A stretch of 64,000 bases of DNA from Pseudonocardia sediminis (GTDB taxonomy: Bacteria > Actinomycetota > Actinomycetes > Mycobacteriales > Pseudonocardiaceae), in contig NZ_SHKL01000001.1 in assembly GCF_004217185.1 (NCBI RefSeq), positions 4,648,001 to 4,712,000 on the forward strand. The letters run 5' to 3'. Shown piece by piece: positions 43,713-57,600 of the stretch. The first letter of the stretch is position 1. The number at the start of each line of letters is the position of its first letter. The notes beneath the pieces are model-generated. The model saw nothing but the letters and a program-made list of their open reading frames with translations. It had not been told where the DNA came from and did no database searches. Made by a program: the position numbers and the translations under genes.

Positions 43713-44558
43713 TCACGACTCTCCTCCGTGCTGCTCCAAGAACCGCGCTAAACCAGCGTGCACGTTCTGGATCGACCGGACAGCGTCAAGAGAACGCTTG
43801 GTCGCGAGATCAGCGGCCTTGTTCGCAACCTGTACGTCGCGGAGTGCGGCAATGACGGTCTCGACGTCGACGTACCCGATGCCGCCGTTGCCGATGCGGC
43901 TGGCGTCGTGGAAGGTCGGGCCTAGTTCGCGGACTATCTGGGCGGCGATGTCCCGCTCTACACCGTTCGCGGTGTCCATGGCGTGCTCGCGAAGTTGGCT
44001 CGACAGGTCGCGGATCGTGTCCCGGCACTGCTCCACATCCCGACCGAGGCGAGCCACCTGCTCCTGGGCGTCACGCACGGTCCAGTGCAGGCGCGCGGCC
44101 AAGGCACGGACAGCAGGCGTCTGCTCATCGGGCTTCAGCTGTGGGGCTTCACGGACCACTGTCATCGCGCGGGACCGGGCGCGGGATGGCGGGCACATGA
44201 CGCCCCACGACGGCGGCAAGTCGAGCCCATCCACGAGCGCGGCGTAAGGAACGACGAGCCACCAGCGGTCGCAGTACCGCTGCCACGGGTCGGACTTCGT
44301 GAGGTCGGCTAGTTCGACCTGTAGGTCTGCACGAGACACCTTGATCTCGTGGCCGACCAGTTCTGAGCCGGCCGCGCGAGTGACGCCCTGCCAGATGAGG
44401 TCGGCTCGGCGGCCTCCCCCGGGCGCGTCGATCTCGGCGGCGAAGATCCCTGCTGGGACGGTCTCGTCGCGGATGTAGTGCCGTCGTAGGGCGGACAGGA
44501 GATCCGAGGCGGTGGTCTTCTGCGGCGCCTCAACGCCCGGAATCGTCTGTGCAGTCAC
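43713..44558 (-). CDS. MmcB-like PD-(D/E)XK nuclease-fold protein
   Basis: A 281-residue protein. The N-terminal 130 residues match the MmcB DNA-repair family: AEIDAPGGGRRADLIWQGVT, SELVGHEIKVSRADLQVELA and WQRYCDRWWLVVPYAALVDG, containing the D...E-x-K core of PD-(D/E)XK nucleases. The second half is a coiled-coil extension (about 160-275). GTG start overlaps the previous stop (GTGA). Likely acts on DNA, possibly in repair or in host-DNA degradation. Confidence 0.6.
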   Translation of the reverse strand: MTAQTIPGVEAPQKTTASDLLSALRRHYIRDETVPAGIFAAEIDAPGGGRRADLIWQGVTRAAGSELVGHEIKVSRADLQVELADLTKSDPWQRYCDRWWLVVPYAALVDGLDLPPSWGVMCPPSRARSRAMTVVREAPQLKPDEQTPAVRALAARLHWTVRDAQEQVARLGRDVEQCRDTIRDLSSQLREHAMDTANGVERDIAAQIVRELGPTFHDASRIGNGGIGYVDVETVIAALRDVQVANKAADLATKRSLDAVRSIQNVHAGLARFLEQHGGES

Positions 44559-45070
44559 AGCGCACCTCCGTGGACTAGGCGCAGCGTGGGACGCGAGGAC
44601 GGTTCCCACACCTTGACGGGGACACCGGCAGCGCGCAGATGCCGGAGGCAGTCGTTGGTTCCGGCGCTGTCGCCGAGTGGGTAGGCGAGGGCGTGCGTCG
44701 GCTTGTGCTCGGTCACCATCCGGGCGTTCCTACGGGGGCCTGCTGCCGGACAGTACGTTCCCCCGCCGCGGGATGGCCGGCGGTGGTTACGGGTGCAGGT
44801 GAGGTCGCACGGGCCCGTCCAGTCCGCTCGCACCTCCTCGTGCAGCGACTGAAAGCCGGACTCGTCGGAGATGTCCTGCCACGCCTTCTTCGCGAGGTAG
44901 TCGGCGCCGAACCGTTCCCCCGTGCCCTTGTCTCGGGAGACCTGGCCGCCCTGAATCAGGACGGGTGTGCCGGTCGTGGACAACTGCAACAGCGCCAGGA
45001 GGTCGGAGCGGATGGTGGCGTAGTCGCGCCATTCACGGCTACCTGTCACGAGGATGCGGAGCTGGGTCAT
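44555..45070 (-). CDS. SLOG-fold protein (DUF2493/YspA-like)
   Basis: A 171-residue protein. LRILVTGSREWRDYATIRSD is the nucleotide-binding glycine loop of SLOG/DprA-like Rossmann proteins; GTPVLIQGGQVSRDKGTGER and a final HLRAAGVPVKVWEP complete the fold. The middle carries a CDLTCTRNHRR insertion. Such proteins sense or process nucleotides. It is coupled to its neighbours by ATGA/GTGA overlaps. Confidence 0.65.
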   Translation of the reverse strand: MTQLRILVTGSREWRDYATIRSDLLALLQLSTTGTPVLIQGGQVSRDKGTGERFGADYLAKKAWQDISDESGFQSLHEEVRADWTGPCDLTCTRNHRRPSRGGGTYCPAAGPRRNARMVTEHKPTHALAYPLGDSAGTNDCLRHLRAAGVPVKVWEPSSRPTLRLVHGGAL

Positions 45071-45327
45071 GACGCGCCCCGATCAAGCCAGCGGATCATC
45101 GCGACGAGGTTCTCCGTCGAGACGTCGTTCCCGTGCTCGAACCGATGGATCGTGGAGGCGTTGCCCACCCCGATCTGCTCGGCCGCGGCCCGCATCGACA
45201 GCCGCTCGCGGCGACGCTTCTCCCGTACGAGGAACCGCAGGTTCGTGATGACCTCGACGATCTCGGCGTAGGAGGTCAGCTCGCAGTCACCGCTCGGCTG
45301 GGGCGCCGTGTCTGGGGTCGCGGTCAC
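45067..45327 (-). CDS. XRE-family transcription regulator
   Basis: An 86-residue protein consisting of a single XRE HTH: LVREKRRRERLSMRAAAEQI and GVGNASTIHRFEHGNDVSTE, NLVAMIRWL. The HTH is preceded by a short acidic region. Second gene of the operon started at 45956. Targets unknown; hosts often pair XRE proteins with DUF397 proteins, one of which is encoded at 61042. Confidence 0.7.
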   Translation of the reverse strand: MTATPDTAPQPSGDCELTSYAEIVEVITNLRFLVREKRRRERLSMRAAAEQIGVGNASTIHRFEHGNDVSTENLVAMIRWLDRGAS

Positions 45328-45956
45328 GGGGTCTCCTCGCGGGCGGAACGGATAGCAGCGAGGAGTAGGGACGACAGGGCTCCGACGTAGATCGTTGCTA
45401 CGTCAGAGTCGTCAGCCCGCTCGACCGAGACGATCTCCAGCACATCGCCGCCGAAGTCGGGGTTACAGGACACCCACGGCTGACCTTGCCCGCCCCACGT
45501 GGCGTCGAAGTCTTCGGCGATGGTCAGCCCTTCGCTCTCGCACACCTGCCGTACGTCGTCTACGGAACGGAGAGAGGGAGGGAGATCGGAATCGTCGTCA
45601 TGCCCGGTGTCCAGTTCCCACTGACGGAACGCTAGGACGTCGTGTCCGACCTGCTCTGGCGGTAGGCCAGCAAGAACGTCTAGAGCAGCGGCGAGTCTCG
45701 GCCACCGACTTCCGTCGCGGTATCGCAAGAACCCGCGACCCGCTGGACGTCCGCCACCCCAGACTTCGCGGACGACCGATAAAGCTTCACTGTCGGCGCC
45801 GAGCGCGATCATCGCTTCGCGCAGTTCGTCGGCCATAAAGAGGAGCGCCGGGGACGGGTTCGGGTCGTTGTCGACGTCTGCGAGTACGGCCTTCATGCGA
45901 CTTCGGAAGTCACCGGATGATGGTGCGGAATCGCGCGATCCGACTGTCTCCGTCAT
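45324..45956 (-). CDS. Hypothetical protein, first gene of leaderless operon
   Basis: A 210-residue acidic protein beginning MTETVGSRDS. Mixed alpha/beta with a Trp-rich centre (VREVWGGGRPAGRGFLRYRD, FDATWGGQGQPWVSCNPDFG). The ATG lies only 7 nt from the -10 TAGTAT. The first 15 bases of the gene are nearly the same as those of the gene at 56708, so the promoter duplication extends into the coding start. Not recognised. Confidence 0.55.
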   Translation of the reverse strand: MTETVGSRDSAPSSGDFRSRMKAVLADVDNDPNPSPALLFMADELREAMIALGADSEALSVVREVWGGGRPAGRGFLRYRDGSRWPRLAAALDVLAGLPPEQVGHDVLAFRQWELDTGHDDDSDLPPSLRSVDDVRQVCESEGLTIAEDFDATWGGQGQPWVSCNPDFGGDVLEIVSVERADDSDVATIYVGALSSLLLAAIRSAREETP

Positions 45957-45963
45957 GCCCTAC

Positions 45964-46006
45964 ATACTACCGCGATAAGCGTGCCCATTGGTGCGCTGAC
46001 CAGCAC
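45964..46006 (-). promoter_or_regulatory. Divergent leaderless promoter with conserved upstream box, module 2
   Basis: On the minus strand TAGTAT (45969-45964) stands 7 nt before the ATG at 45956. Upstream, GTGCTGGTCAGCGC (46006-45993) is repeated exactly, at the same 23-nt distance from the -10, in module 4 (56758-56745). Confidence 0.55.
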
Positions 46007-46025
46007 GAAACTGCCCGCAGATCAA

Positions 46026-46054
46026 TGGATCGACAGGCGGATGAGCGGTAAGAT
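46026..46054 (+). promoter_or_regulatory. Conserved promoter block, module 2
   Basis: TGGATC and TAAGAT separated by 17 bp. The 29-base block is identical to 51269-51297 and near-identical to the blocks at 56778 and (inverted) 3073-3101. Confidence 0.65.
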
Positions 46055-46081
46055 TCGAGGTGCACGCTCCCCCATGAAAAC

Positions 46082-46124
46082 GGGGTCCGACGCCCAGCCT
46101 GGACAGCAGATGGCGTCGAACCCC
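46082..46124. terminator. Module 2 leader hairpin with T-run on minus strand
   Basis: GGGGTCCGACGCC (46082-46094) pairs with GGCGTCGAACCCC (46112-46124) with one mismatch; the loop holds CCTGGACAGCA, shared with module 4. On the minus strand GTTTTC follows, so it can terminate leftward transcripts. The preceding CCCC could alternatively pair with GGGG. Confidence 0.6.
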
Positions 46125-46146
46125 TGACGACTTGCAAGGAGTCGCC

Positions 46147-46203
46147 ATGTGCAGGTTAGACAGCCATACCCGGACCCGCCTAGCAGGGCGGTGGGGCCGA
46201 TGA
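46147..46203 (+). CDS. Leader peptide ORF, module 2
   Basis: An 18-codon ORF (MCRLDSHTRTRLAGRWGR) with AAGGAG upstream. The ribosome site is inside a small hairpin: CGACT (46128-46132) pairs with AGTCG (46140-46144). The TGA overlaps the ATG of the winged-helix gene at 46200. Similar in position and start to the ORFs at 2983 and 56897. Confidence 0.5.
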   Translation: MCRLDSHTRTRLAGRWGR

Positions 46204-46764
46204 CATGGACCAAGTTGTCCGACGACTTCAGCGACGACTGCTGGACCCTGTCGGCCGCCGCGTTCCGCCTCCACGTCGAGGGCCTGTGCTGGTCCAACCG
46301 GAAGTTGCTGGACCTCGCCATCCCGAAGGACGACCTCCGTCGGTTCGCGAAGGACACGGCCGCGGTGACGGAGCTGCTCGACGTCGGCTGGTGGTCCGAC
46401 ACGGGCAGGACCTACCGGATCAACCACCACGCCCAGTACCAACGCCTCCGGGACGACGTCGTGAAGCAGCAGGCCGCGAACGCCCGCAACGGCGCGAAGG
46501 GTGGCCGACCTAGGAAGCCTGGACGCGAACAGGTGCGTGACTTGAGGAAGCCAGAAACCCAGTCGGTTAGCGAACCGCTAGGCGAAAGGGACGGGACTGG
46601 ACTGGTCTGGACGAGAGGAAGAGGAGGAGCTACTGATGAACCTCCACGAGGAGCGGTACTCGGGCTCAGACGCAGACCCCATGTCCGCCCCCTACCTGTC
46701 CCGGCTCGACGAGGAAGACGAGGATTGGGAACGGACGTGGGGACCGAGAGATCAGGCGTCGTGA
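46200..46764 (+). CDS. Winged-helix-like DNA-binding protein, module 2, with apparent frameshift
   Basis: The frame starting at 46200 encodes a winged-helix-like domain (MTWTKLSDDFSDDCWTLSAA, VTELLDVGWWSDTGRTYRIN) and a basic linker (NARNGAKGGRPRKPG). Near GGCGAAAGGGAC (about 46581) the protein-like frame moves by +1: KGTGLDWSGREEEELL, then RYSGSDADPMSAPYLSRLDE ending at 46764, matching the tail of the 56953 gene (RYSGSDSDEITGPYFAELEE). Without a shift, the original frame continues to 47006 as Arg-rich sequence antisense to another gene. A combined product would have about 187 residues. Confidence 0.55.
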
Positions 46765-46976
46765 CGGAGGCTGTCGGGGTCGGAGACAGCCCGTCGCGCC
46801 TTCTCCCACGCGGCAACCGTGGACTTCGTCCGTGGCTGGACCTCACCCCAGACGATCTCTTCCTGTCCAGACCGCTCTTGCTGGTCCTGCTGGCCTCCGA
46901 CCGCGGAGATGTGCGCGTCGGTGAACGCACGACCGTAGGCACTGGTGAATGCTTCGTAGTCGCTGATGTGGTCCAC
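46752..46976 (-). CDS. Hypothetical protein
   Basis: A 74-residue protein from GTG 46976 (GGGAG upstream). Mixed composition with a Gln/Glu-rich centre (FTDAHISAVGGQQDQQERSG). Its stop overlaps the end of the rightward winged-helix gene by 13 nt, supporting 46764 as that gene's true end. Not recognised. Confidence 0.45.
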   Translation of the reverse strand: MDHISDYEAFTSAYGRAFTDAHISAVGGQQDQQERSGQEEIVWGEVQPRTKSTVAAWEKARRAVSDPDSLRHDA

Positions 46977-47083
46977 GCTGGGAGTCTCCCACTCGGAGGG
47001 TTGTGACGGGCTAGGGCCGCTGTCGGGACCGGTGCCGGGCACTGCCTGCGCGCCGGTCCTGACGCCCTTGCACTTGGCCCTTA

Positions 47084-47308
47084 TTAGTCGCTCAGGTCCC
47101 GAGACTCGATCATCGCTACCGCGTGCAGGTTGATGTGCACCGTCGGTCCGCCATCGGTGGACCTGATGATCTGGCTGGGCATGGCGTCCTTGGTACCCCG
47201 CCACACCGCAGCCGCCGCCTCCTGTATGCCCGTTGCTACGTCCTCGTCGACGCGGGTACAGACCTCAGCGCCGTGCAAGAAGATGAACCTCAGTCGTACT
47301 TCGCTCAT
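47084..47308 (-). CDS. Hypothetical protein
   Basis: A 74-residue protein (MSEVRLRFIFLHGAEVCTRV ... TVHINLHAVAMIESRDLSD) that looks like a small beta-alpha fold. ATG preceded by GGGGTAGGGAG. The final segment, TVHINLHAVAMIE, resembles a common short phage domain. Not recognised. Confidence 0.5.
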   Translation of the reverse strand: MSEVRLRFIFLHGAEVCTRVDEDVATGIQEAAAAVWRGTKDAMPSQIIRSTDGGPTVHINLHAVAMIESRDLSD

Positions 47309-47314
47309 CGCTCC

Positions 47315-47425
47315 CTACCCCTTCCCCGTACCCCTGAGAGCCCGCCTGAGCCCCGGGCCGGTCATGTCCCGTGCTGGGTGTGGGTGGCGGCAGCCGGCGC
47401 CAGAGGGGCAGCAGGAGCGAGTCAC
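47315..47425 (-). CDS. Small ORF, coupled to neighbours
   Basis: A 36-codon ORF whose GTG overlaps the preceding stop (GTGA) and which ends 7 nt before the next start. Rich in Cys, Arg and Gly (VTRSCCPSGAGCRHPHPARD). Only spacing supports it. Confidence 0.3.
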   Translation of the reverse strand: MTRSCCPSGAGCRHPHPARDMTGPGLRRALRGTGKG

Positions 47426-47796
47426 GGCTCCTGCCCCGCGTCCTGACGAGCGTCGTACGCCGCCGCTCGTGCATCACGGTCCCGGAGTGACTGGATCGCT
47501 GCGTAGGCCGCGCGGAAGCGGGTCGAGAACAGGACGTGGGAATCAGGACGGGAGCGCGTGATGGCGGTTGCGATGTCGTTCGCCAGTTTCGATTCGGTCG
47601 CGCTCAGGTCGGGCCTGGACAGGGGCTGTGCAGGCGGCGGGCACAGCAGGTCTGCTTCCGCCCTAAGCTTCGCGGCGACTTCCTCCACGGTCCCGACGCC
47701 GGACTCGGCGGTGCTGTGGCCGGGCGCGTTCCAGACCTCGATCACGTAGCGGAGAGGCCGTGGGGTCGGGTCGCCCGATGCGATGTCGTCGCTCAC
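47422..47796 (-). CDS. Hypothetical protein
   Basis: A 124-residue protein from GTG 47796 (GAGGAGGAGG upstream). VIEVWNAPGHSTAESGVGTV is followed by a helical part ending RDARAAAYDARQDAGQEP. Not recognised; located directly after the Lsr2 gene in one operon. Confidence 0.45.
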   Translation of the reverse strand: MSDDIASGDPTPRPLRYVIEVWNAPGHSTAESGVGTVEEVAAKLRAEADLLCPPPAQPLSRPDLSATESKLANDIATAITRSRPDSHVLFSTRFRAAYAAIQSLRDRDARAAAYDARQDAGQEP

Positions 47797-47830
47797 TCGT
47801 CCTCCTCCTCGCACCCGCACTCGATCTGGA

Positions 47831-48205
47831 TCAACCGGCCAAGGCGGGTCGACGGAAACGGTGGGAGACCAGCGACGCATTGCCCGCCTGGTACGCCTCC
47901 TGGATGTCATTCGGGATGCGGCCTCGGTCGCCGATCTCGATCCCGGCGGCTCGAGCCCACTCGCGCAGGTCCCGGTTCCCGGCACGGTCCGTCGGCGAGC
48001 GGCGAGACGTCGGGTTCCCGCGTCCCGGTCCGCCCGTCTTCCGTGCCGCAGCGATGTACGGGGCCAGGAGGTCACGGAGCTTGGCGGCGTTCGACTCGGA
48101 CAAGTCGATCGCGTGCTGCCGGCCGTCCAGCCCGAACGTCACGGTCTCGGCTGCTTCCCCTCCGTCCAAGTCGTCGACGAGGGAGACAGTCGCTACACGG
48201 GCCAT
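47831..48205 (-). CDS. lsr2: Lsr2-like xenogeneic silencer/nucleoid protein
   Basis: A 124-residue protein with the whole Lsr2 layout. The N-terminal dimerisation domain is VATVSLVDDLDGGEAAETVTF, DGRQHAIDLSESNAAKLRDL; the C-terminal DNA-binding domain is RDLREWARAAGIEIGDRGRI with the AT-minor-groove RGR hook at residues 94-96. Host Lsr2 silences AT-rich foreign DNA; phage copies are thought to interfere with, mimic or protect from this. It carries a C-terminal extension of about 15 residues. Confidence 0.85.
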   Translation of the reverse strand: MARVATVSLVDDLDGGEAAETVTFGLDGRQHAIDLSESNAAKLRDLLAPYIAAARKTGGPGRGNPTSRRSPTDRAGNRDLREWARAAGIEIGDRGRIPNDIQEAYQAGNASLVSHRFRRPALAG

Positions 48206-48234
48206 CGGATGGTTCTCCTATCAGGGGAAAACGG

Positions 48235-48609
48235 TCAGGAAGAGGCAGCAGGCAGGTCGGTCATCGGGTCCGGCTTCGTCCAGTCGCCCTCGTTGCAGAA
48301 CCCGCACGGGACACGGCCAGAAGCGACACGTCGGCGGTCGCCGCGAAAGTCGGGAGACCAGTTCTTGTCGTCGACCCACCCGATCCCGCCGCACGAACAC
48401 GGTAGGACTGGAAGGTCGGCAGAACACCACGGGCAGAACGCGATCGCGATCCACGACGACCCGCCGTCCCGAACCGGCAGCCCGAACTCCTGGTGCTGGT
48501 CGGACCAGACCACGGTCACGTCGGGGCAGGTGTGCGATGTCGTGTGCTGGCCGCAGGAGAGCGTCGCGTTCTCCCGCAGCATGTCGCAGCAGTACGTCGG
48601 ATCGGTCAC
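48235..48609 (-). CDS. DUF6980-like zinc-ribbon protein
   Basis: A 124-residue protein from GTG 48609 (GAGGAGG upstream). CCDMLRENATLSCGQHTTSH, SDQHQEFGLPVRDGGSSWIA and AFCPWCSADLP form the DUF6980 pattern; a second Cys pair (PCSCGGIGW...CGFC) follows. Zinc binding is likely. Function of the family is unknown. Confidence 0.6.
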   Translation of the reverse strand: MTDPTYCCDMLRENATLSCGQHTTSHTCPDVTVVWSDQHQEFGLPVRDGGSSWIAIAFCPWCSADLPVLPCSCGGIGWVDDKNWSPDFRGDRRRVASGRVPCGFCNEGDWTKPDPMTDLPAASS

Positions 48610-48911
48610 GTTTCCTCCTCGGTGGTTCCGTCCCAGCCGGCCTGACGGGGACCCCGAGACGCGGCATTCCGCCAACCCGGAGTAGCAGGGCGAGGAGGGC
48701 CACCCAGAGTGCGGGTGGAGCGGTAGGTGTCGAGGTCGGAACGGAGACGGGAGTTCTCGGCGGCCAGAGACTCGGCGCGGTCGCAGCACTCGCAGGAGCC
48801 GCCCATCGGGGGCCTGTCCGCCATGCCCTCTGCGATCGTGTGAATGACCGTGCCGTCACCGTCAACCAGCGCGACACGGTTGGGGCTGATCTCCATGTGG
48901 GGTCCAGTCAC
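48606..48911 (-). CDS. Hypothetical protein
   Basis: A 101-residue protein from GTG 48911 (GTGA overlap). A beta-rich start (NRVALVDGDGTVIHTIAEGM), a CECCDRAESLAAENSRLRSD element (Cys pair plus short coiled coil) and a disordered end. Shares the 'LAAENSRLRSD' type helix with other small genes of this region. Not recognised. Confidence 0.45.
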   Translation of the reverse strand: MTGPHMEISPNRVALVDGDGTVIHTIAEGMADRPPMGGSCECCDRAESLAAENSRLRSDLDTYRSTRTLGGPPRPATPGWRNAASRGPRQAGWDGTTEEET

Positions 48912-49204
48912 GACGCCACCTCTCGTACGACCTTCTTGGCAGTAGCGAGCGCTTTCGGGGACAACGTCGTCTGATCCAATCGACGGCAGATGTCCACGCC
49001 CAAGGTCGAGGCCCTGGGGTACCAGCCGTGTTCGAACGCGGGATCCTGGCCGACCCACCGGTCCAGACGCTCGGCGATAGCTTTGACCGTCATCTCCACG
49101 ATCTCGTCCGGAGTGGAGGCAAGGGCGGCGCCGCGGCCAATCGTGGTTGTCCGGATTACGTCGTGGACCTCTTGCCTCAGCGCCGCACGTTCGTCTGCGC
49201 TCAC
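48908..49204 (-). CDS. Hypothetical helical protein
   Basis: A 98-residue protein from GTG 49204 (GTGA overlap). Helical, with VEMTVKAIAERLDRWVGQDP and YPRASTLGVDICRRLDQTTL. Not recognised. Confidence 0.45.
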   Translation of the reverse strand: MSADERAALRQEVHDVIRTTTIGRGAALASTPDEIVEMTVKAIAERLDRWVGQDPAFEHGWYPRASTLGVDICRRLDQTTLSPKALATAKKVVREVAS

Positions 49205-49518
49205 GTCGTCACCGCCGCGGCGCACCGGCCCGGGACGAACGTGTGCATCTCGTCGCAGTCATGACCCGCGCACGAGTCCTCGGCCGGGGACGAGCTAGAT
49301 GTCTCCGCGCCCATCAGCATCAGAGACTCGGCGAGCTGCTCAGCCTCGGCCTGGTCCTCGACGAACCACTCGGCCTCGACGCGGAACCCGACTGGTTTCG
49401 CCGGCTGCTCGTCCAGCATCCGCTCGCGGCAGCACCAAGCCACCGGGACCGGTGGATCCACGGCCCCGCAGTGTCGACAGTCGGGGGCACGGTCGACTTG
49501 GTCCCGGGACTCGGTCAT
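49201..49518 (-). CDS. Hypothetical Cys-rich protein
   Basis: A 105-residue protein, ATG overlapping the upstream stop. CRHCGAVDPPVPVAWCC and CAGHDCDEMHTFVPGRC at the two ends could bind zinc; the middle is an acidic helix (EAEWFVEDQAEAEQLAESLM). Not recognised. Confidence 0.45.
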   Translation of the reverse strand: MTESRDQVDRAPDCRHCGAVDPPVPVAWCCRERMLDEQPAKPVGFRVEAEWFVEDQAEAEQLAESLMLMGAETSSSSPAEDSCAGHDCDEMHTFVPGRCAAAVTT

Positions 49519-49844
49519 GACGGGACCTCGGTGACCGGACCCCACCGGCGTAACAGCTCGGCGGTGCTCAGGTAGCACTTCCCGCCGTCCTTGTAGCCCT
49601 TCCACTCGTCGGGACGGTGGGTTCGGCCCCAGCTCGGAGAGCAGCCGTCGCAATCGCCGTCCGTGCCGTCGTGGACGGATTTCACGTCGCCGGGGATCGA
49701 CAGGTCCGCGCGCAGCGTGTCGGCGACGTGCTCGGCCAGCATCCCCCACCTGACGCCGACGTGGGTCTGCATGACGTCCAGCAGCGTCCAGACCAGAGCA
49801 GGGCGGTCGGACAGGAAGTCCGCGTCCCAGGTTCGCGCGGTCAC
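49515..49844 (-). CDS. Hypothetical protein
   Basis: A 109-residue protein from GTG 49844. A helical N-terminus (FLSDRPALVWTLLDVMQTHV) and a C-terminal part with WGRTHRPDEWKGYKDGGKCY. Not recognised. Confidence 0.45.
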   Translation of the reverse strand: MTARTWDADFLSDRPALVWTLLDVMQTHVGVRWGMLAEHVADTLRADLSIPGDVKSVHDGTDGDCDGCSPSWGRTHRPDEWKGYKDGGKCYLSTAELLRRWGPVTEVPS

Positions 49845-50104
49845 GTCGACACCACCGCGAGGTCCGCCATCATCGCCTTGCCCTTCGGGGTGAGTCGGTA
49901 GTAGCGCCGTGGGAAGTCGGGGTTAGCCGCCTCCTCCTCGGTTTCGTGGCCGTCCACCAGCCATCCTGCAGTGATCAAACGCGTCAGGACGCGGCAGACG
50001 ATCGGCTGGGCCACGCCCGTCTCCGTCGACAGGTCGTAGCTGTAGTGGCGGGCGTCCGGGCTGCGTAGGAGGACTACAGCGAGAGAGGAGACGCGGTCAG
50101 TCAT
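49841..50104 (-). CDS. PadR/MarR-like winged-helix regulator
   Basis: An 87-residue winged helix: SLAVVLLRSPDARHYSYDLS, TETGVAQPIVCRVLTRLITA, GWLVDGHETEEE and RRYYRLTPKGKAMMADL. The YRLTPKGK wing is characteristic of PadR proteins. It is encoded downstream of and coupled to the RNA ligase (ATGA). Confidence 0.75.
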   Translation of the reverse strand: MTDRVSSLAVVLLRSPDARHYSYDLSTETGVAQPIVCRVLTRLITAGWLVDGHETEEEAANPDFPRRYYRLTPKGKAMMADLAVVST

Positions 50105-51210
50105 GCTGCGTCCTCCGTCTGGCATCGCAGGTTCGACGGGCGATGGTCAGCGGAGGGCTTCACCTCGCGCCACGCCAGGTCCGACACGCCCCGGCCGTCG
50201 AGAAGTCGGAACAGGTACGCCTTGTTCGGCCGGTCCTTCGCGACCATCGCGTAGTCCTTCCGCGTCCACCCCGCCGGGAGAAACCTCAGGATCGCGGTGT
50301 GGTCCTCGCCAGCCGTGTCCTCGATAGCTGCGGCGTCGCGCTGTAGGTCGCGGGCGACCATCGACACCCAGCCGTGGAACTCGTCCGGGAGACCGGAGAT
50401 CAGGTCCGCGATGTCGTCACCCTCACCGAGCCGCTCCCACACGGTGCGGGCGTTCAAGCCGGTCACGATGCGGTGCAGGGCCACGTAGTCGGCCTGCTTC
50501 ACCTTGACCGCGGCGCCGGACACGATGGATCGGACGACGAAGCCCTCTCGGCCCGGCCGCGGAGCCGCGGCCAGGGCATCGGCGTAGCTGCCGAACGCGA
50601 ACGCTTCGACGACTGGGCCGGGCCACTGGATTGCGTTGGCGAGCCGCCACGCAGGTACGTGCTGCCCGTCGTGGTCGCGAACCCCTCCGAGCAAGACCAG
50701 ATCATCCTGCCCTGCGTAGTCGATGACAATCCGGTTGGCCGGATAGACGATCTCGAACAGCGTCGTGACGCCCGGGATCGGGCACACCGTGCGGGTGTAC
50801 CGCTGTGCCCACAGCGCGGTCGCGTGCTGAGCCTGCTCCGAAGTGAACGAGCCGCGGGTCGCGATGCCGTACTCGCCGTCGGCGGGGTACAGGATCCCGA
50901 GCGACCCGTCCACCTTGTCGGTGACCTCTACTGCCTCGCGACCGTCGATGGTGGGCGCGTTCGGCTCGTGGTGGTTGTGCACCTTCGGGAACGGTCGCGC
51001 GACGATCCCGCCGTGTGCGTCAACGATCAGTCCACGGCATGTGCGAGTAACGGGGGTCCACGCCGAATCCCACTGGCAAGTGTCGGTGTAGTTGTAGATG
51101 GACAGCGGCAGCGTCGGGTGTTCCTGACGCTTTACGTGACCAGCCGCAATAGCGGCGTCCAAGTCATTCACGCCGAACAGATCGGTGATGTTCGCTGCGG
51201 CTGTCTGCAC
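50101..51210 (-). CDS. T4 Rnl1-like RNA ligase
   Basis: A 369-residue protein with nucleotidyltransferase motifs: CRGLIVDAHGGIVARPFPKV upstream, motif I TDKVDGSLGI (adenylated Lys99), motif III-like VTTLFEIVYPANRIV, motif IV REGFVVRS, and motif V AAVKVKQADY. Rnl1 proteins seal RNA 5'-P/3'-OH ends and can repair tRNAs cut by host anticodon nucleases. The GTG start lies 6 nt from a -10 TATTCT, so the mRNA is probably leaderless. A PadR-like regulator follows. Confidence 0.8.
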   Translation of the reverse strand: MQTAAANITDLFGVNDLDAAIAAGHVKRQEHPTLPLSIYNYTDTCQWDSAWTPVTRTCRGLIVDAHGGIVARPFPKVHNHHEPNAPTIDGREAVEVTDKVDGSLGILYPADGEYGIATRGSFTSEQAQHATALWAQRYTRTVCPIPGVTTLFEIVYPANRIVIDYAGQDDLVLLGGVRDHDGQHVPAWRLANAIQWPGPVVEAFAFGSYADALAAAPRPGREGFVVRSIVSGAAVKVKQADYVALHRIVTGLNARTVWERLGEGDDIADLISGLPDEFHGWVSMVARDLQRDAAAIEDTAGEDHTAILRFLPAGWTRKDYAMVAKDRPNKAYLFRLLDGRGVSDLAWREVKPSADHRPSNLRCQTEDAA

Positions 51211-51216
51211 ACCTAA

Positions 51217-51222
51217 AGAATA
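51217..51222 (-). promoter_or_regulatory. -10 box of leaderless RNA ligase mRNA, module 3
   Basis: TATTCT on the minus strand stands 6 nt from the GTG start at 51210, preceded by GG as in the other divergent promoters. Confidence 0.5.
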
Positions 51223-51268
51223 CCATTCCGCACCGTCTGCGAGTGGGCCGAATAGGCACCTCAGCGGG

Positions 51269-51297
51269 TGGATCGACAGGCGGATGAGCGGTAAGAT
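51269..51297 (+). promoter_or_regulatory. Conserved promoter block, module 3
   Basis: TGGATC, a 17-bp spacer and TAAGAT, identical in all 29 bases to 46026-46054. Confidence 0.65.
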
Positions 51298-51337
51298 CAG
51301 AGACGTAGCCTTCGGGCTCGCTCCCCCACATAGAAGT

Positions 51338-51393
51338 GCCCCGGACTACCTGCTGACAACAGGCCCGGGGCGCGATCGAGAGACAGGCTCGAT
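51338..51393 (+). promoter_or_regulatory. Module 3 leader hairpins
   Basis: GCCCCGG (51338-51344) pairs with CCGGGGC (51365-51371), with inner CCTG/CAGG. ATCGAG (51375-51380) pairs with CTCGAT (51388-51393), ending right before the ATG at 51394 and enclosing GAGAGACAGG, the probable ribosome site. A TTCG tetraloop hairpin lies at 51307-51318. No T-run is present here, unlike the other modules. Confidence 0.55.
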
Positions 51394-52236
51394 ATGCCCC
51401 ACGATACACAGGACACCCATACCCCCGACAGCATCCGTTGGGGGCGACGGTCACACACCTTCGTGCCCATGCCCGAGTGGATCCTCCTCGGCGGGCTCAC
51501 CCCGCAGGCCGTCACGCTTTACTCCCTCCTGCTGGCGCACGTGAACCGCAAGGAGGGCGACGGGCTCGCGTGGCCGGGACTCCGCACTCTGGCCGGGATG
51601 ATGGGGTTCCGCCGACACCAGTCCGTGCACCGCTACGTGCAGGAGCTTGAAGAGGTCGGCGCGATCTCCGTGCAGCGAACGAAGGATGGGCCGACCGGGA
51701 ACCGGAACGTCTACCGGATCAACGAGACGCCGGAAGAGAACTACACGGGCGTCCGGTCGTTGGGCGACTTCTACGCCCTCCGCAGGAATCAGAATCGGGG
51801 CCTTGTGCGCTCCACCGCACAAGGCTTGTTCCCGGCAGGAGACAAGGGCTTGTCGGCTGTGGACGACCAGAACCAGACGAACGCAACGAGACGTATAGAT
51901 CCAGACGAAGTTACTTCTAGCGACGCTGTGAGCGGCCGTCATTTCGCAGGCTCAACGACGGATAGAAAGATCTTCATCCCGCACTGGTTGAAGCGCTGCG
52001 AGGACCGAGGCAAGGTGTCGCAGTACCTCGTCGGGGCCGCAGTTGCGACAATGGAAGCGGCCGGTCTTGAAGTCAGCGAGGACGCCAAGGACGCGATGGG
52101 CTTCACGCTCGACCACAAGTGCGAGTCCCTGACGAACATCCAGCTGTCCGAGCGGGCTCAGGCATGGGTCCTGGCCGCAGGTACCGGCGACCGCAACGGC
52201 TGGCTCGGCACATGGCCACAGAGGAAGGCGTCATGA
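51394..52236 (+). CDS. Winged-helix DNA-binding protein, module 3 (replication-initiator-like)
   Basis: A 280-residue protein. MPHDTQDTHTPDSIRWGRR at the start matches the leader peptides of the other modules (D-S/T-H-T...RWGR) and looks fused in frame. Residues about 27-110 form a winged helix (WILLGGLTPQAVTLYSLLLA, TLAGMMGFRRHQSVHRYVQE, AISVQRTKDGPTGNRNVYRI), similar to RepA/DnaD-like initiators. The C-terminal part (about 190-280, HWLKRCEDRGKVSQYLVGAA) is helical. Possible roles are replication initiation or transcription control. Confidence 0.65.
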   Translation: MPHDTQDTHTPDSIRWGRRSHTFVPMPEWILLGGLTPQAVTLYSLLLAHVNRKEGDGLAWPGLRTLAGMMGFRRHQSVHRYVQELEEVGAISVQRTKDGPTGNRNVYRINETPEENYTGVRSLGDFYALRRNQNRGLVRSTAQGLFPAGDKGLSAVDDQNQTNATRRIDPDEVTSSDAVSGRHFAGSTTDRKIFIPHWLKRCEDRGKVSQYLVGAAVATMEAAGLEVSEDAKDAMGFTLDHKCESLTNIQLSERAQAWVLAAGTGDRNGWLGTWPQRKAS

Positions 52237-52255
52237 CGAGAAGAGAGGCAGCACC

Positions 52256-52849
52256 GTGGGCCTGTTGAACCTGACCCCTCACCCTGTTCGGGTCTACCAC
52301 GAGAAAACCCCGGACCGGATCCGCGACCTTGACGAAGGTCTCCTGTTCCGCATCGACCCGACGGAGGCTCCCGCCCGTCTCGCGATGTCGGACGTGGGGA
52401 TCACGTGGGACGTGATGGACGACTACAACACCAACTACCTTGCCCCTGTTCGGCGCGTCCGCTTCGGCCAGGTCGACAACTTGCCCGACCCGGAGGAAGG
52501 GACGTGGCTGGTGGTGCCGCTCCTCGTGGCCCGGGACCAGCCCGACCGTCGAGACCTTCTTTTCCCGACCCGCGAGGTCCGGAACATGGACGGGACGGTC
52601 GTTGGGTGCCGTGGGTTCGGACAGGTCGACTGCGGCGACGGGGATGGCGTGGACTTGACGCTTGGGTGGTCGAACTCGGACACGGGCCCAACGGGGATGC
52701 GGCTGTACGCGCTGGATGCCGGGGAGAGTCCGCGGTGGGCTGTCCCGCACGCCCGTGTTGCTGAGGTGCCGTTGATGGAGCGGGGTCACCACGAGGGCGA
52801 CCGGTTTCGTCTGGTGTTCGCAGGGGACCGTTTTGGGCGCATGCGGTGA
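52256..52849 (+). CDS. Hypothetical protein (LNLTPHxV family)
   Basis: A 197-residue protein with GTG start and GAGAGGCAGC upstream. LLNLTPHPVRVYHEKTPDRI is a start motif found in many phage hypothetical proteins; a LVVPLLVARDQPDRRDLLFP stretch and a Gly/Asp-rich middle follow. The family is usually encoded near replication/regulation genes. It is downstream of the winged-helix gene. Confidence 0.55.
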   Translation: MGLLNLTPHPVRVYHEKTPDRIRDLDEGLLFRIDPTEAPARLAMSDVGITWDVMDDYNTNYLAPVRRVRFGQVDNLPDPEEGTWLVVPLLVARDQPDRRDLLFPTREVRNMDGTVVGCRGFGQVDCGDGDGVDLTLGWSNSDTGPTGMRLYALDAGESPRWAVPHARVAEVPLMERGHHEGDRFRLVFAGDRFGRMR

Positions 52850-52900
52850 CACTGTGGGGCGACCTCGCCTGTCCGGTCCGGACGGAGAGAGAAGGGCGTC

Positions 52901-53278
52901 ATGACGGAGCCACCGCGCGAGCCCCGTTGGTTCTGGTGGTCTCAAGATCAGCTGGACAGCCCGTGGTGTCTGTTCCTTTGGGGGTCGGACGAGTGGGGTC
53001 GCCGCGATCTCGGTGTGCGACTTCCCGGCGGGATGCTCTTTCTCGCGTTATGGCGGTTTCGCGAGTTCCGAGGGCCGTGCGCCCGGTGTGGTCAGTGGGA
53101 GCATGTCGACGGCTGGAACGGGTCGCACTGCCAGTCCTGCGCCCTTGAGTTGTTTGACTGGGGTCGCGGGTGCATCTGCCCGTCTTGGATGGAGGCAGCC
53201 GACCTGGAGGGGTGGCTCGATCACTTTCCAGAACCGGGTTGCCCTGTGCACGACCCAACGAGCGAGGTGACTGTATGA
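52901..53278 (+). CDS. Hypothetical Trp/Cys-rich protein
   Basis: A 125-residue protein with WFWWSQDQLDSPWCLFLWGS at the N-terminus and a Cys-rich C-terminal half (CARCGQWEHVDGWNGSHCQS, CALELFDWGRGCICPSW) that could bind zinc or a metal. Last gene of the module 3 rightward operon. Not recognised. A possible 18-codon ORF (53275-53331) overlaps its stop by ATGA. Confidence 0.5.
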   Translation: MTEPPREPRWFWWSQDQLDSPWCLFLWGSDEWGRRDLGVRLPGGMLFLALWRFREFRGPCARCGQWEHVDGWNGSHCQSCALELFDWGRGCICPSWMEAADLEGWLDHFPEPGCPVHDPTSEVTV

Positions 53279-53336
53279 ACGCGCACCATCCCGCTTACGA
53301 CCCGGTGTGGGCCGCTACAGCCCCGTCCTGACGCCG

Positions 53337-53534
53337 TTAGGGCTTGGTGCGCTTCATCCGCTGGCGGTCAGCTCGATTCGGGACCGGCTTCATGACGCTG
53401 TGATCGTCCAGGCAGTTCGACTTCCCGGCGCGAGGACGTGCCGCGGCCATCTCGGCTAGACGCTCCTTCACCTCAGCAGCCTTCCGTTCAGCGGCGCTGG
53501 TGTCGACGTCGAGCATCGGCTTGCTGGTGCTCAC
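53337..53534 (-). CDS. Small hypothetical protein
   Basis: A 65-residue basic helical protein (DTSAAERKAAEVKERLAEMA, AARPRAGKSNCLDDHSVMKP, RADRQRMKRTKP). It is the end of a leftward operon converging on the module 3 genes. Not recognised. Confidence 0.5.
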   Translation of the reverse strand: MSTSKPMLDVDTSAAERKAAEVKERLAEMAAARPRAGKSNCLDDHSVMKPVPNRADRQRMKRTKP

Positions 53535-53746
53535 TGCGTCTCATCGGGATTTCGGTCCAGGACTCGGACCTCGCCGGGGTTCAACCAGTCAAACCGGTCG
53601 TCCCCGAACTCGACCTTGACCGGCCTGAACATCGTGCCGTGGTCTACGTATGTGACCGTCCCTACGGCGCCGCGCACGAAGTAGGACGAGTCAGCGGTGA
53701 CCACGACTCGGTCTCCGACGGTGAACATCTGAGCGGCAGTTCTCAC
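53531..53746 (-). CDS. Small SH3/KOW-like protein
   Basis: A 71-residue protein from GTG 53746 (GAGGAG at 5 nt). MFTVGDRVVVTADSSYFVRG, AVGTVTYVDHGTMFRPVKVE, FGDDRFDWLNPGEVRVLD form a small beta barrel of the KOW/SH3 type. Nucleic-acid or protein binding; role unknown. Confidence 0.55.
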   Translation of the reverse strand: MRTAAQMFTVGDRVVVTADSSYFVRGAVGTVTYVDHGTMFRPVKVEFGDDRFDWLNPGEVRVLDRNPDETQ

Positions 53747-53787
53747 GACTTCTCCTCGTGTGTCTGGTCGGTGCAGGTTGGGCCGGG

Positions 53788-53883
53788 TCACCAGCCGTCG
53801 TTGTCGTTCATCTCGCCCCAGGACTGGCCCGGGTCGGTCTCGTCCTCCACGTCGTGCTGGTCGGCGTTCGCCGGGTCGCTCAT
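53788..53883 (-). CDS. Tiny acidic protein
   Basis: A 31-codon ORF (MSDPANADQHDVEDETDPGQ ... NDNDGW) with GAGGAG upstream. Strongly acidic; small acidic phage peptides can inhibit DNA-binding host proteins, but no evidence of that is seen here. Confidence 0.45.
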   Translation of the reverse strand: MSDPANADQHDVEDETDPGQSWGEMNDNDGW

Positions 53884-53960
53884 AAGGAATCTCCTCGTGT
53901 GTCAGGCTGCTCGCCGTTGCGAAGTCGCTGCAGCACAGCGTGTCCGGCGTGGAGAAGCAT
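53880..53960 (-). CDS. Tiny ORF
   Basis: A 26-codon ORF (MLLHAGHAVLQRLRNGEQPD...) whose stop overlaps the next start (ATGA). No clear ribosome site. Only spacing supports it. Confidence 0.3.
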   Translation of the reverse strand: MLLHAGHAVLQRLRNGEQPDTRGDSL

Positions 53961-54004
53961 CTGGATCTCGCTTTCTGGGCGTCGGGGGGGCCGGCACCAC
54001 CGGG

Positions 54005-54364
54005 TCAGTCGGGAACGTTGGTCAGGGCGGCGATCAGCGCGTCCCGGGTCTCCGCGTCCTCCCGCAGCTCAAACTTGCGGTAGGCGTCGCGGACTGCGCG
54101 GACCGCCTCCCGCTTCTCGGCGGCAGCCCGCACAGAGCGGGCGTACTCGGTCTGGCCCCGCTTGACCTCGCGCAGCTTCTCCTCCCACCGAGCGTGCCCG
54201 TCGCGGGCCTCGTCCTCGGTGAAGTGGTACTCGGCCTGCCCGGCGAGGGGGCCGCCGAAGATGGCGGTCTCGAACGGCGCCCGCAGGCCGGGCCGGATGG
54301 TGGACACCCGCCCAGCGGCGTCCAAGTCGGAGTAGAGGAACGTGTTGTCGACGGTCGTGGTCAT
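54005..54364 (-). CDS. Hypothetical protein, first gene of leftward operon
   Basis: A 119-residue protein. A beta start (DNTFLYSDLDAAGRVSTIRP, APFETAIFGGPLAGQAEYHF) is followed by long charged helices (EDEARDGHARWEEKLREVKR). The ATG has GGAAGGA upstream. Transcribed divergently from the HTH gene at 54492 across the operator region. Not recognised. Confidence 0.5.
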   Translation of the reverse strand: MTTTVDNTFLYSDLDAAGRVSTIRPGLRAPFETAIFGGPLAGQAEYHFTEDEARDGHARWEEKLREVKRGQTEYARSVRAAAEKREAVRAVRDAYRKFELREDAETRDALIAALTNVPD

Positions 54365-54428
54365 GGCCGGGAGTTCCTTCCGGTCAGAGGGTGTCGCGGG
54401 CGGTCAGAGGTGGTTCGCCCGTCTCTGT

Positions 54429-54492
54429 TGTAGATGACTCTACAGCTAGTCGGACCACATTCGCAAGCCCTCATGCTGTAGTGTTTTCTACA
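54429..54492. promoter_or_regulatory. Divergent promoter with two TGTAG operators
   Basis: TGTAGA-N4-TCTACA (54429-54444) and TGTAG-N6-CTACA (54477-54492) are inverted repeats with the same half-site. The second overlaps -10 TAGTGT (54479-54484) and touches the ATG of the HTH gene 7 nt away. On the minus strand TTGCGA and TAGAGT (18-bp spacer) form a promoter crossed by the first repeat. Confidence 0.6.
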
Positions 54493-54692
54493 TGCGAGCC
54501 GAACACACCAGGGCCGAAGTCGAGCGCATCGGGAAACGGCGAGATAGACACAAACAGCAGGTCGTAGACGACACCGCCGAGCTTCGAGAAGCCGTCCTCC
54601 GCGCCCTTGACGACGGCTACAGCGAGAACGAACTAGCAGTTGTCGGGAAAGTCGACCGCATGACGATCCGGACGTGGCTCGGCAAACGCTGA
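54492..54692 (+). CDS. Small helix-turn-helix protein, probably autoregulatory
   Basis: A 66-residue protein with a basic N-terminal helix (EVERIGKRRDRHKQQVVDDT) and a C-terminal HTH (LREAVLRALDDGYSENELAV, VGKVDRMTIRTWLGKR). A palindrome covers its own -10 and start, and a second site lies at the divergent promoter, so autorepression and control of the leftward operon are likely. Its mRNA would be leaderless. Stop overlaps nothing; ends 5 nt from the convergent neighbour. Confidence 0.65.
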   Translation: MRAEHTRAEVERIGKRRDRHKQQVVDDTAELREAVLRALDDGYSENELAVVGKVDRMTIRTWLGKR

Positions 54693-54696
54693 CCGG

Positions 54697-55149
54697 TCAC
54701 GACCCCTCCCCTGCCCTCTGCCCCGGCACTCCCTGCCGCTGTGCTCGTTTCGCCGCTACCTCGTCCAAGCGTTGGTTCCGCACTGTCCGGGACAGGTCCT
54801 GCAACGCCATGTGGTCGGCCCCGGCTTGGGATTCGTTCATCGCCACCCGCGCCTCCAAGTCCCGGAGCTGCTGCCGTTGCGCGTCGAGTCGTTCGGTGTT
54901 GTCGGCGGTCCAGAACGGGATCGTCAGGAAGAACAGCAGGACGCCGGCGCACAGGGTGAGCATGGTGGCGGTGACGAGGTCGACGACGGTCCAGGTTACG
55001 GCGAACAACAGCGCCAGGACGAGAAGAGCGGCCACCACCCGGTTGGGGTGACGTCGCCAGCGGTGCGGGTCCGCCCTCCACACCGGCAGCGGTTCCGGTT
55101 CGGCGGCGATACGGGGCAGTGGGGGCATGCCGGGGCTGGTGTCCGTCAC
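54697..55149 (-). CDS. Membrane protein with C-terminal coiled region
   Basis: A 150-residue protein from GTG 55149 (GTGA overlap). Two adjacent transmembrane helices (RVVAALLVLALLFAVTWTVV and TATMLTLCAGVLLFFLTIPF) are preceded by about 35 polar residues. A charged helical tail follows (LDAQRQQLRDLEARVAMNES). Topology places both termini on the same side. Function unknown. Confidence 0.5.
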   Translation of the reverse strand: MTDTSPGMPPLPRIAAEPEPLPVWRADPHRWRRHPNRVVAALLVLALLFAVTWTVVDLVTATMLTLCAGVLLFFLTIPFWTADNTERLDAQRQQLRDLEARVAMNESQAGADHMALQDLSRTVRNQRLDEVAAKRAQRQGVPGQRAGEGS

Positions 55150-55529
55150 GTCTCTGCCTCCACGAATCCCCCGCCTTCCTCGTCGGCGATACGCAGCACT
55201 AGGCGGCCGTTGTGCGCGTCCAAGTCCAGAGCTAAAGCCGTCGAGCCTCGGGTGATGCGGAGGTGCGCCAAACCGGTCGCGAGGACTTCCAGGTGGATGT
55301 CGACGCCGCGCAGAACGAGGTCGTCGACCGCTTCCGGGTTTTCTGCGTCGAGGACGAGGTGTTCCGGGCCGCGTGGTGTCGTGGAGGCGGGAAGGGCGTC
55401 TAGACGGCGGGCGGCTTCGACGAGGGTGGCGGCTGGTTCGTCCGCGCTCAGCATCACGAGAGCCTCGGCGATCGCGGCGACGTCCTCGGCGAGTACGGCG
55501 TGGGATCGGCCGGCGGGGTCGTCGGTCAC
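55146..55529 (-). CDS. Hypothetical protein
   Basis: A 127-residue protein from GTG 55529. Helical then beta (EDVAAIAEALVMLSADEPAA, EHLVLDAENPEAVDDLVLRG, STALALDLDAHNGRLVLRIA). Not recognised. Confidence 0.45.
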   Translation of the reverse strand: MTDDPAGRSHAVLAEDVAAIAEALVMLSADEPAATLVEAARRLDALPASTTPRGPEHLVLDAENPEAVDDLVLRGVDIHLEVLATGLAHLRITRGSTALALDLDAHNGRLVLRIADEEGGGFVEAET

Positions 55530-55828
55530 GCCGCCCTCCCTGCACGAGCTCGGCACGGGTGCGTCGCCAGCCACGCCGCCCGGTACGCGTCCCGATGCGA
55601 GCCGTACGAGGACACGATCATCACCGCACCCGTCAAAGTGGAGACGGTGGTGACCTTCCACGGGTCAGGGCCGGGGAACTTCTTGACGGAGAGACGGCGG
55701 GCAGGCTCGACCCTCCGAGGCGCGGGCCAGTTCACCCGGGACAGGGTCCGCAGGCGGTCGTAGCAGGTGGTCGCGTACCCAGAGAGCGCGGAGATGGGGC
55801 TCACGACGCCGGTCGGGAGATCGGTCAC
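55526..55828 (-). CDS. Hypothetical protein
   Basis: A 100-residue protein from GTG 55828 (GTGA overlap). Contains VKKFPGPDPWKVTTVSTLTG and AVMIVSSYGSHRDAYRAAWL. Not recognised. Confidence 0.45.
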   Translation of the reverse strand: MTDLPTGVVSPISALSGYATTCYDRLRTLSRVNWPAPRRVEPARRLSVKKFPGPDPWKVTTVSTLTGAVMIVSSYGSHRDAYRAAWLATHPCRARAGRAA

Positions 55829-56490
55829 GGTCCCTCCGGGTATCGCGGCTTGGCAACGGACCGCCAGGCGTCCCGGCCGCGGATGAGCGACCCCTCGACG
55901 TGCGGCCACGACAGAACACCGTCGGTCACTTGATCAGCCGCCGCGGCCAGCTCGTCCCCGGCGGCCCGCAGTGCGGCAGACTCGGAGCGGAGACGGCGGA
56001 TGGTCGCTTGCGCCTCGTCGAGCGTGGCGCAGACGTCGTTGTCGAGCGCGTCGTTGTTGACCATCACGTCGAGGTAGCTCAGGAACACGTCCGTCCGCCG
56101 GTCGTCCGGCGCGGTGTCTCCTGACCGGGGACTCGTAGACGCACTGGTGAGGCGGGGAAGCAGGTAACGAATCCGGGCCGCAGCAGTACGTTCGCCACAG
56201 GCCCGACCAAGAACGTACAGATCCTGCCGTTCGTTCGCGGTGTGACGGCGCCGCATCTCGGCGTCGGTGCCGTCAGCCAGACCGTCGAACTCCGCGGCCA
56301 GCTCTTCCCAGGTTCGCGGCTGCTCATCGTCGTACGGTTCCCCATCCGGGGCGAGGGCAGCGGGCGGTGCGGTGTCGTCTCCTGAGGTCACGACCCGCGT
56401 GGACGGACATACACAGTGCTCTACAAACACTTCCCCTTTGGCGTCGTACTGGCAGCCACACCAGCCAGAGGCGATGTCCCGGCCGGTCAC
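55825..56490 (-). CDS. Hypothetical protein, paralogous to the gene at 61622
   Basis: A 221-residue protein. The segment LRSESAALRAAGDELAAAAD is shared with the 61622-62542 protein and the underlying DNA is nearly identical over about 43 bp. An N-terminal Cys cluster (CGCQYDAKGEVFVEHCVC) could bind zinc. GTG start with GTGA overlap. Function unknown. Confidence 0.5.
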   Translation of the reverse strand: MTGRDIASGWCGCQYDAKGEVFVEHCVCPSTRVVTSGDDTAPPAALAPDGEPYDDEQPRTWEELAAEFDGLADGTDAEMRRRHTANERQDLYVLGRACGERTAAARIRYLLPRLTSASTSPRSGDTAPDDRRTDVFLSYLDVMVNNDALDNDVCATLDEAQATIRRLRSESAALRAAGDELAAAADQVTDGVLSWPHVEGSLIRGRDAWRSVAKPRYPEGP

Positions 56491-56708: not shown

Positions 56709-56715
56709 GCCTCTG

Positions 56716-56758
56716 ATTCTACCGCGCCGAACGGCCCGAATCCCGCGCTGACCAGCAC
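56716..56758 (-). promoter_or_regulatory. Divergent leaderless promoter with conserved box, module 4
   Basis: TAGAAT (56721-56716) is 7 nt from the ATG at 56708; GTGCTGGTCAGCGC (56758-56745) lies 23 nt upstream of the -10, as in module 2. Confidence 0.55.
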
Positions 56759-56777
56759 AAAATAGGCGTCGCAGCAA

Positions 56778-56806: not shown

Positions 56807-56833
56807 CGGAGTCGTTAGCTCCCCATGAAAAAC

Positions 56834-56874: not shown

Positions 56875-56896
56875 TGACGACTGAATGAGAGTCGCT

Positions 56897-57591: not shown

Positions 57592-57600
57592 GCCGGCGGT

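Follow-up and report, generated by a model that had tools for sequence, protein, structure and literature searches.

Seven copies of a putative two-way control module in an integrated phage-like element of Pseudonocardia sediminis

Seven copies of one module are spread over 88.6 kb of the Pseudonocardia sediminis genome, and with moderate confidence we interpret this module as a repeated two-way (divergent) control unit of one integrated phage-like element. The DNA analysed, hereafter the window, is a stretch of 64,000 nucleotides (bases 4,648,001-4,712,000 of contig C1, 6.50 Mb, in a genome of 6.61 Mb and two contigs). A preliminary description of this window had reported four copies of a regulatory module placed between divergent genes. 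All four were found where they had been placed (c1 to c4), and the total rises to seven with three copies outside the window: c5 (window +64,964) and c6 (+81,111) to its right and c7 (-7,513) to its left. Alignment of the seven copies, which that description had proposed for its four, revealed conserved blocks at the promoter, at a dyad and at the transcript start; conservation is restricted to these blocks and the letters between them have diverged. In the arrangement that we propose, the conserved promoter would drive a short winged-helix (wHTH) or other HTH gene in one direction, a second promoter would drive the neighbouring gene in the other direction, from a leaderless mRNA in most copies, and the dyad between the two promoters would probably be the target of a single regulator, common to all copies, that controls the two directions jointly.

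We take the seven modules to belong to one integrated phage-like element of ~110 kb in tRNA-Asn. A 39-bp direct repeat, which matches the end of the tRNA-Asn gene, is present at window positions -21,741 and 88,204, and a tyrosine integrase adjoins its right copy; no third copy was found in the 144 kb examined at a threshold of at least 24 of the 39 letters. The stretch between the repeats was taken as one integrated element. Its genes include those for a capsid, a terminase, a portal, an M15 peptidase (endolysin) and an Ant antirepressor, as well as an Erf protein, a DnaC-like loader and a replication initiator; a 2,472-residue ORF is probably the tape measure, despite Pfam returning no match. 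The kin of the element are distant: the best relatives of the capsid share 70% identity with it and, among 62 genomes of the genus, the capsid occurs in its own genome alone.

The promoter block of the wHTH side reads TSGATC-17 bp-TAAGAT, as first described, and spans (-35 to -10) positions 3073-3101 on the minus strand in c1 and, on the plus strand, 46026-46054 in c2, 51269-51297 in c3 and 56778-56806 in c4. This pattern, which was derived from the window copies, gave four matches with no mismatch in the window and none in 100 shuffles; the -10 is TAGGAT in c6 and TAGTAT in c7. The inner half of the spacer, CGGATNAGCGG, is nearly invariant as well, with a single departure, in c7. A weight matrix of the block scored 36.2-46.3 bits for the seven copies and 12.7 bits for the runner-up site in 144 kb, the best score in five shuffles being 12.9 bits; as the matrix was made from these same seven blocks, it is the gap that matters and not the scores themselves. 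A sigma-70 consensus scan of positions 44,500-58,500, which span copies 2-4, listed none of the c2-c4 promoters, so that promoter function is argued from conservation, from which we infer that the block would act as a promoter.

The promoters of c2 and c3 are identical over exactly 29 bases, a run that had been noted at the outset for two copies, though the genes downstream are of different types. The leader of c3 is closest to that of c7, yet the c7 promoter is the most divergent of all. The copies that resemble each other in the promoter are thus not those that do so in the leader, and the parts of the unit have been exchanged, or kept alike, separately. Such discordance is found after exchange, and the DNA around c2 and c4 is itself duplicated (73% identity over 161 nt). 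Both observations would suit a set of duplicated cassettes of common ancestry, spread by recombination, in which separate small genes have their own promoters and no regulator in common. However, the blocks and their spacings have been kept while the letters between them diverged, and we therefore give this explanation little credence. Common ancestry of the copies is nevertheless possible, so that their fixed features are not independent of each other.

Upstream of the promoter, a gap-free alignment anchored on the -35 has eight columns, between -65 and -52, in which six or all seven of the copies agree, a level of conservation equalled by none of 2,000 sets of random stretches. Seven of the eight columns fall in a 14-bp stretch of imperfect two-fold symmetry, the centre of which lies at -61.5 relative to the inferred wHTH start. 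This dyad occupies 3121-3134 (minus strand) in c1, 45993-46006 in c2 and 56745-56758 in c4, the last two having the same 14 bases, GCGCTGACCAGCAC. Five copies show the dyad clearly, c6 has a weak version of it and c3 lacks it; in the five clear copies the gap that separates it from the -35 keeps its length of 19 bp. Away from this position the dyad matrix is unspecific, a coding site at 21,301 reaching 15.6 bits as compared with 16.5-20.4 bits for the clear copies.

On the other side of the dyad, a TANNNT -10 box in the opposite orientation is present in all seven copies. These boxes, chosen by eye before their spacing was measured, lie 45 or 46 nt from the rightward -35 in c1, c3, c6 and c7 and 56 nt from it in c2, c4 and c5, two distance classes that differ by about one helical turn. 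A start codon follows 6-7 nt past the box, the spacing of leaderless mRNAs, in five of the seven (c1, c2, c3, c4 and c7); past the box, c5 has a 5-codon ORF and the next gene of c6 starts 106 nt away. The back-to-back promoter initially assigned to every copy is thus general as far as the -10 is concerned, whereas the closely following start codon is restricted to five copies. The opposite -10 and predicted leaderless start span 3143-3161 on the plus strand in c1, where the gene (3159-3920) encodes a metallophosphoesterase, and, on the minus strand, 45954-45973 in c2 (gene 45324-45956), 51208-51226 in c3 (GTG start of a T4-type RNA ligase gene, 50101-51210) and 56706-56725 in c4 (gene 56487-56708). 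The opposite-side genes of c5 and c6 correspond to DUF5131 and phrog_4604 respectively, and those of c2 and c4 returned no family match in a profile search that covered c1-c6.

Similar features are described in cluster O mycobacteriophages (PMC4351075), in which a long leftward region contains several promoters, a divergent pair gives leaderless mRNAs and a 17-bp dyad is repeated; the repeat, TGTTCGGNNNCCGAACA, has more than 30 occurrences there, mostly away from promoters. The module shares with that system several promoters in a leftward region, a divergent pair with predicted leaderless mRNAs and repeated dyads, but its dyad holds a fixed position relative to the promoter. Searching the window for TGTTCGGNNNCCGAACA gave one match with 2 mismatches where 0.35 were expected, as chance allows.

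The wHTH transcript would open with two hairpins, a long one (H1) and a short one (H2), of which H2 would display the ribosome site at the start codon. H1 and H2 follow each other 3 nt apart in the four window copies, at 3006-3045 and 2986-3002 on the minus strand in c1, where H2 lies at the start codon of the leader ORF, and on the plus strand at 46082-46124 and 46128-46144 in c2, 51338-51371 and 51375-51393 in c3, and 56834-56874 and 56878-56894 in c4. In the H1 structure of c1, c2, c4, c5 and c6, 95% of the cells are paired, a value that none of 500 shuffles reaches, the slid control structures being 36-45% paired. Three pairs are changed on both sides, which is also seen in 70 of 500 shuffles, and the covariation score was reached by 2 of 500. 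These five leaders thus lend moderate comparative support to the predicted structure, H2 being invariant among them. In all seven copies a gap of 0-2 nt separates the end of H2 from the start codon, an arrangement seen at 4 of 154 other gene starts, by a geometry criterion that was fixed after the copies had been seen, and H2-like geometry occurs in 3.3% of random 30-mers. The H2 stem is CGACT/AGTCG in five copies, ATCGAG/CTCGAT in c3 and GTCGA/TCGAC in c7, and its loop has 7 nt in six copies and 3 nt in c5; H1 of c3 is also of a second sequence type, and c3 groups with c7. Hairpins of both kinds, which had been proposed for each window copy, can be drawn in each and gain from the comparison, but folding the seven leaders one by one gives weak signals (z -0.37 to -2.65), and H2 is missing from the minimum-energy folds of c3 and c5. 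A pairing of a conserved C-rich stretch with the 5' arm of H1 was dropped, as inspection by eye showed that it is not kept in c7.

The leader recalls the start-associated elements of cluster K mycobacteriophages. In these phages (PMC3203893) the 13-bp SAS, GGGATAGGAGCCC, is located just before start codons at the ribosome site, about half of the elements having an upstream inverted repeat that forms a long hairpin (ESAS). Like these, the module recurs many times within a single actinobacterial phage genome, places an element at the start site and lies outside the structural genes. The upstream inverted repeat is likewise present, as H1 before H2, although its sequence differs from ESAS and the comparison is one of layout only. 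Unlike SAS/ESAS, the module adds to the hairpins a promoter, a dyad, a leader ORF and one type of gene, and SAS itself, with up to 2 departures, gave no match before start codons in the window, where 1.76 were expected. No Rfam family reached its curated score in the window, and a scan of the c1-c6 loci that admitted E values of up to 1 brought up two matches, both put down to chance. We conclude that the module is a variant of the repeated control elements found in actinobacterial phages, and that it is a member of neither the SAS/ESAS nor the cluster O set.

The long hairpin beside a start-site element, which is also the ESAS/SAS layout (PMC3203893), raises the question of whether the hairpins are the core of the module. 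In that case the start-codon site would be an RNA operator, a single protein of phage or host origin would bind it and set the translation of all seven genes in an SAS/ESAS-like manner, and the promoter would be an ordinary one. Three different stem sequences all preserve the H2 geometry, which is what such an operator would lead one to expect; however, the letters of the stem change so freely that the protein would need to read shape, and conservation of the promoter block and dyad is as strong as that of the leader. We consider an RNA operator of this kind unlikely. A second comparison can be made with the put RNAs of phage HK022, described in PMC9378689 as ~70 nt long with two stem-loops after early promoters. 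The module resembles them in layout only, with two stem-loops within the first ~90 nt past the promoter, and its leader might similarly act on RNA polymerase to yield a transcript that ignores terminators. Such an action appears distinctly improbable, as H2 covers the ribosome site, unlike put RNA, and as the downstream units are short, the predicted c2-c6 transcripts spanning, by our gene calls, one or two genes before convergent genes and leaving little to read through. For the two-way control unit that we favour, we infer an RNA mechanism in which the leader governs translation of the gene behind it.

Five copies carry a separate leader ORF, 18-20 residues long, whose end overlaps the start of the wHTH gene in ATGA (c1, c2, c4 and c5) or GTGA (c6); it lies at 2924-2983 on the minus strand in c1 (19 residues) and, on the plus strand, at 46147-46203 in c2 (18 residues) and 56897-56956 in c4 (19 residues). 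In c3 and c7 the leader is fused and read on in frame into the HTH gene. These findings agree with the ATGA overlaps originally noted for copies 1, 2 and 4 and with the fused leader noted for copy 3. All five separate ORFs contain an AGG codon followed by CTA or TTA, a pair that never occurs in the better-scoring gene calls (21,441 codon pairs), where TTA and CTA account for 0.4% and 1.8% of leucine codons and AGG for 3.9% of arginine codons. A C-to-T change within AGG-YTA leaves the amino acid unchanged. Conservation of the pair could possibly have an RNA cause, as its bases also fit a small RNA hairpin in c1, c2 and c6. In the mechanism that we propose, translation would cross the short leader slowly, at two adjacent rare codons, and re-initiate at the ATGA or GTGA of the wHTH gene, which would hold the DNA-binding protein at a low level and make it dependent on translation of the leader.

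The genes behind the leaders lie at 2382-2927 (minus strand) in c1 and, on the plus strand, at 46200-47006 in c2, 51394-52236 in c3 and 56953-57591 in c4. A winged-helix-like gene had been assigned to each of these copies; c1, c2 and c4 indeed have one, whereas the c3 gene is of another HTH type and groups with that of c7. In c2 the second half of the frame looks disturbed, and a C-terminal motif is out of frame with the winged-helix part (46200-46765). The proteins of c1, c2, c4, c5 and c6 align as one family. Those of c2, c4, c5 and c6 match phrog_2447 and phrog_3926 (replication initiation) with E 1e-9 or better for both; the c1 protein has no such match (best phrog_9474, E 0.017) and is placed in the family by alignment alone, with 18% identity to c4. 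The phrog_2447 matches stop at profile position 120-163 of 295, covering roughly the N-terminal half. A longer relative at 68381-69250 matches phrog_2447 to position 276 and adjoins the gene for the DnaC-like loader. The c3 and c7 proteins are HTH_36-like (c7 above and c3 below the Pfam cut-off), touch replication-initiation families and share a stretch near the C-terminus. A model of the c6 protein, with a block confidence of 79-97 over residues 1-110, contains helices and a two-stranded wing and resembles models of phage HTH proteins and replisome organizers (18 matches, E up to 0.001); none of the solved structures gave a convincing match (best E 0.28). A short HTH (Cro/CI-like) ORF lies 3' of the c7 gene on the same strand (L007:11343-11489, window -8657 to -8511); it falls below the Pfam cut-off and is a possible immunity-type regulator.

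By family match and predicted fold, the proteins of c2, c4, c5 and c6 thus resemble phage replication initiators and replisome organizers, from which they differ in that the matches cover only about the first half of the profiles and that one element has five short paralogs. The modules could in principle be replication sites, the proteins being initiator relatives that bind repeats near their own genes: four of the five proteins of this type match replication-initiation families at E below 1e-11, and the longer member of the family adjoins the DnaC-like loader. However, the conserved blocks occupy promoter positions rather than forming repeat arrays within one site, and seven origins would be hard to accommodate; we regard this as very unlikely. 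In the two-way control unit, the wHTH proteins, as shortened kin of the replication initiator that the element encodes, would probably serve as local regulators.

The position of the copies in the element was examined on a map of simple, uncurated gene calls, which missed the wHTH genes of c1, c2 and c6. Copies c2-c6 separate blocks in which most genes point left, and their wHTH units run rightward for one gene (two in c3) before convergent genes are met; c1 and c7 point left, and c1 precedes the endolysin (M15 peptidase) gene. This map fits modules that head transcription blocks, each with a small regulator gene placed back to back, and it partly supports the suggestion that duplicated control units partition the right arm and the lysis region. 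The usual description of a temperate phage has a single central switch. A promoter, an RNA leader and a DNA-binding gene repeated seven times would allow gene blocks to be added or exchanged under common control. One could go further and imagine an element assembled from plug-in blocks of genes, the majority of which begin with the same two-way switch, with a shared regulator reading the helically phased dyad to fire the blocks together, the shortened replication initiators acting as local brakes and the rare Arg and Leu codons tying the brake to the translation state of the host; this fuller picture is speculative and we hold it to be rather doubtful. The seven copies also constitute a natural mutation series, in which the promoter, the position of the dyad, the geometry of the stem and the rare codon pair are fixed and the stem letters and gene type vary.

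We asked whether the module is present elsewhere. Searches of 50,697 phage records with the 801-base module region, the right 24 kb or the c4 protein gave no match, nor did the full promoter pattern or the c7 protein in viral contigs. The core promoter pattern occurred in 16 viral contigs, and inspection of the surroundings of each site found neither a -35 nor a leader in any of them; the surroundings of one match in a genome-contig scan (an Erythrobacter MAG) were also without the module. With up to 3 mismatches, the promoter pattern was found in 4 of the 62 genus genomes, six times in its own and once, with 3 mismatches, in each of three others. A looser pattern with up to 2 mismatches was found in 53 of 297 family-sample genomes, the best outside its own having 1 mismatch, a result for the pattern alone. 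An RNA model, R1, was built from c1, c2, c4, c5 and c6, and does not find c3 or c7. It matched 23 of the 62 genus genomes at E up to 0.1, its own included (best outside, 9.2e-6), and ten of these loci outside its own genome, when inspected, showed no promoter block and no such start codon. In 85 viral loci (80 of 129 capsid-bearing loci and 5 with a wHTH gene) R1 gave 6 matches in 5 loci, of which L086 and L093 were rejected after inspection, the others being L111, L162 and L163; an 18-bit match at L008:14826-14913 was likewise rejected. No mention of the module was found in the published literature searched.

Members of the wHTH family are more widespread, occurring in at least 29 of 249 family-sample genomes, with at least six in the P. 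sediminis genome and one or two in each of the other 28 (11 candidates scored per genome). These more distant genes are without the module as far as tested. In ten loci with wHTH relatives (L032-L034, L036 and L040-L045) none was seen upstream by eye. At the 28 wHTH loci of other family-sample genomes, an automatic test, which left out 7 loci without a usable start codon, detected a short ORF over a possible start in at least nine; a stem precedes such an ORF in L186, gene-start stems occur in L186 and L192, and the sequences of these stems and ORFs differ from the module. R1 gave two weak matches (E 0.44 and 0.62) in 39 wHTH loci, of which L168 is from the P. sediminis genome itself. As far as tested, therefore, the phage records, viral contigs, the one genome-contig scan, the 62 genus genomes and the family-sample wHTH loci contain no second example of the module. 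In two of the loci in other genomes, L189 and L191, the wHTH start is overlapped by a leader ORF of another kind, conserved between the two, just before position 1501. The P. sediminis genome itself has an extra family member without module at L040 (C1:4288320-4291820), ~360 kb away; by eye, this gene lies just before a putative capsid-type gene, and the locus is possibly a small phage satellite.

Other features of the element are worth recording. A TraG/TraD-type coupling protein and a 1,383-residue TrwC-type relaxase with helicase domains are encoded at L007:1964-8532 (window ~-18036 to -11468); as both lie within the attachment sites that enclose the phage genes, conjugation and phage genes are found in one element. 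In the terminase gene (34479-36527, minus strand), matches to phage terminases are confined to the two end pieces, and the middle resembles a homing-endonuclease domain with an E value just above the cut-off (0.00031), an intein-like arrangement. Finally, the right arm contains two pairs of duplicate stretches, 55946-56002/61971-62027 and 56360-56390/62511-62541, which are 89% and 94% identical respectively and suggest a recent duplication between leftward blocks.
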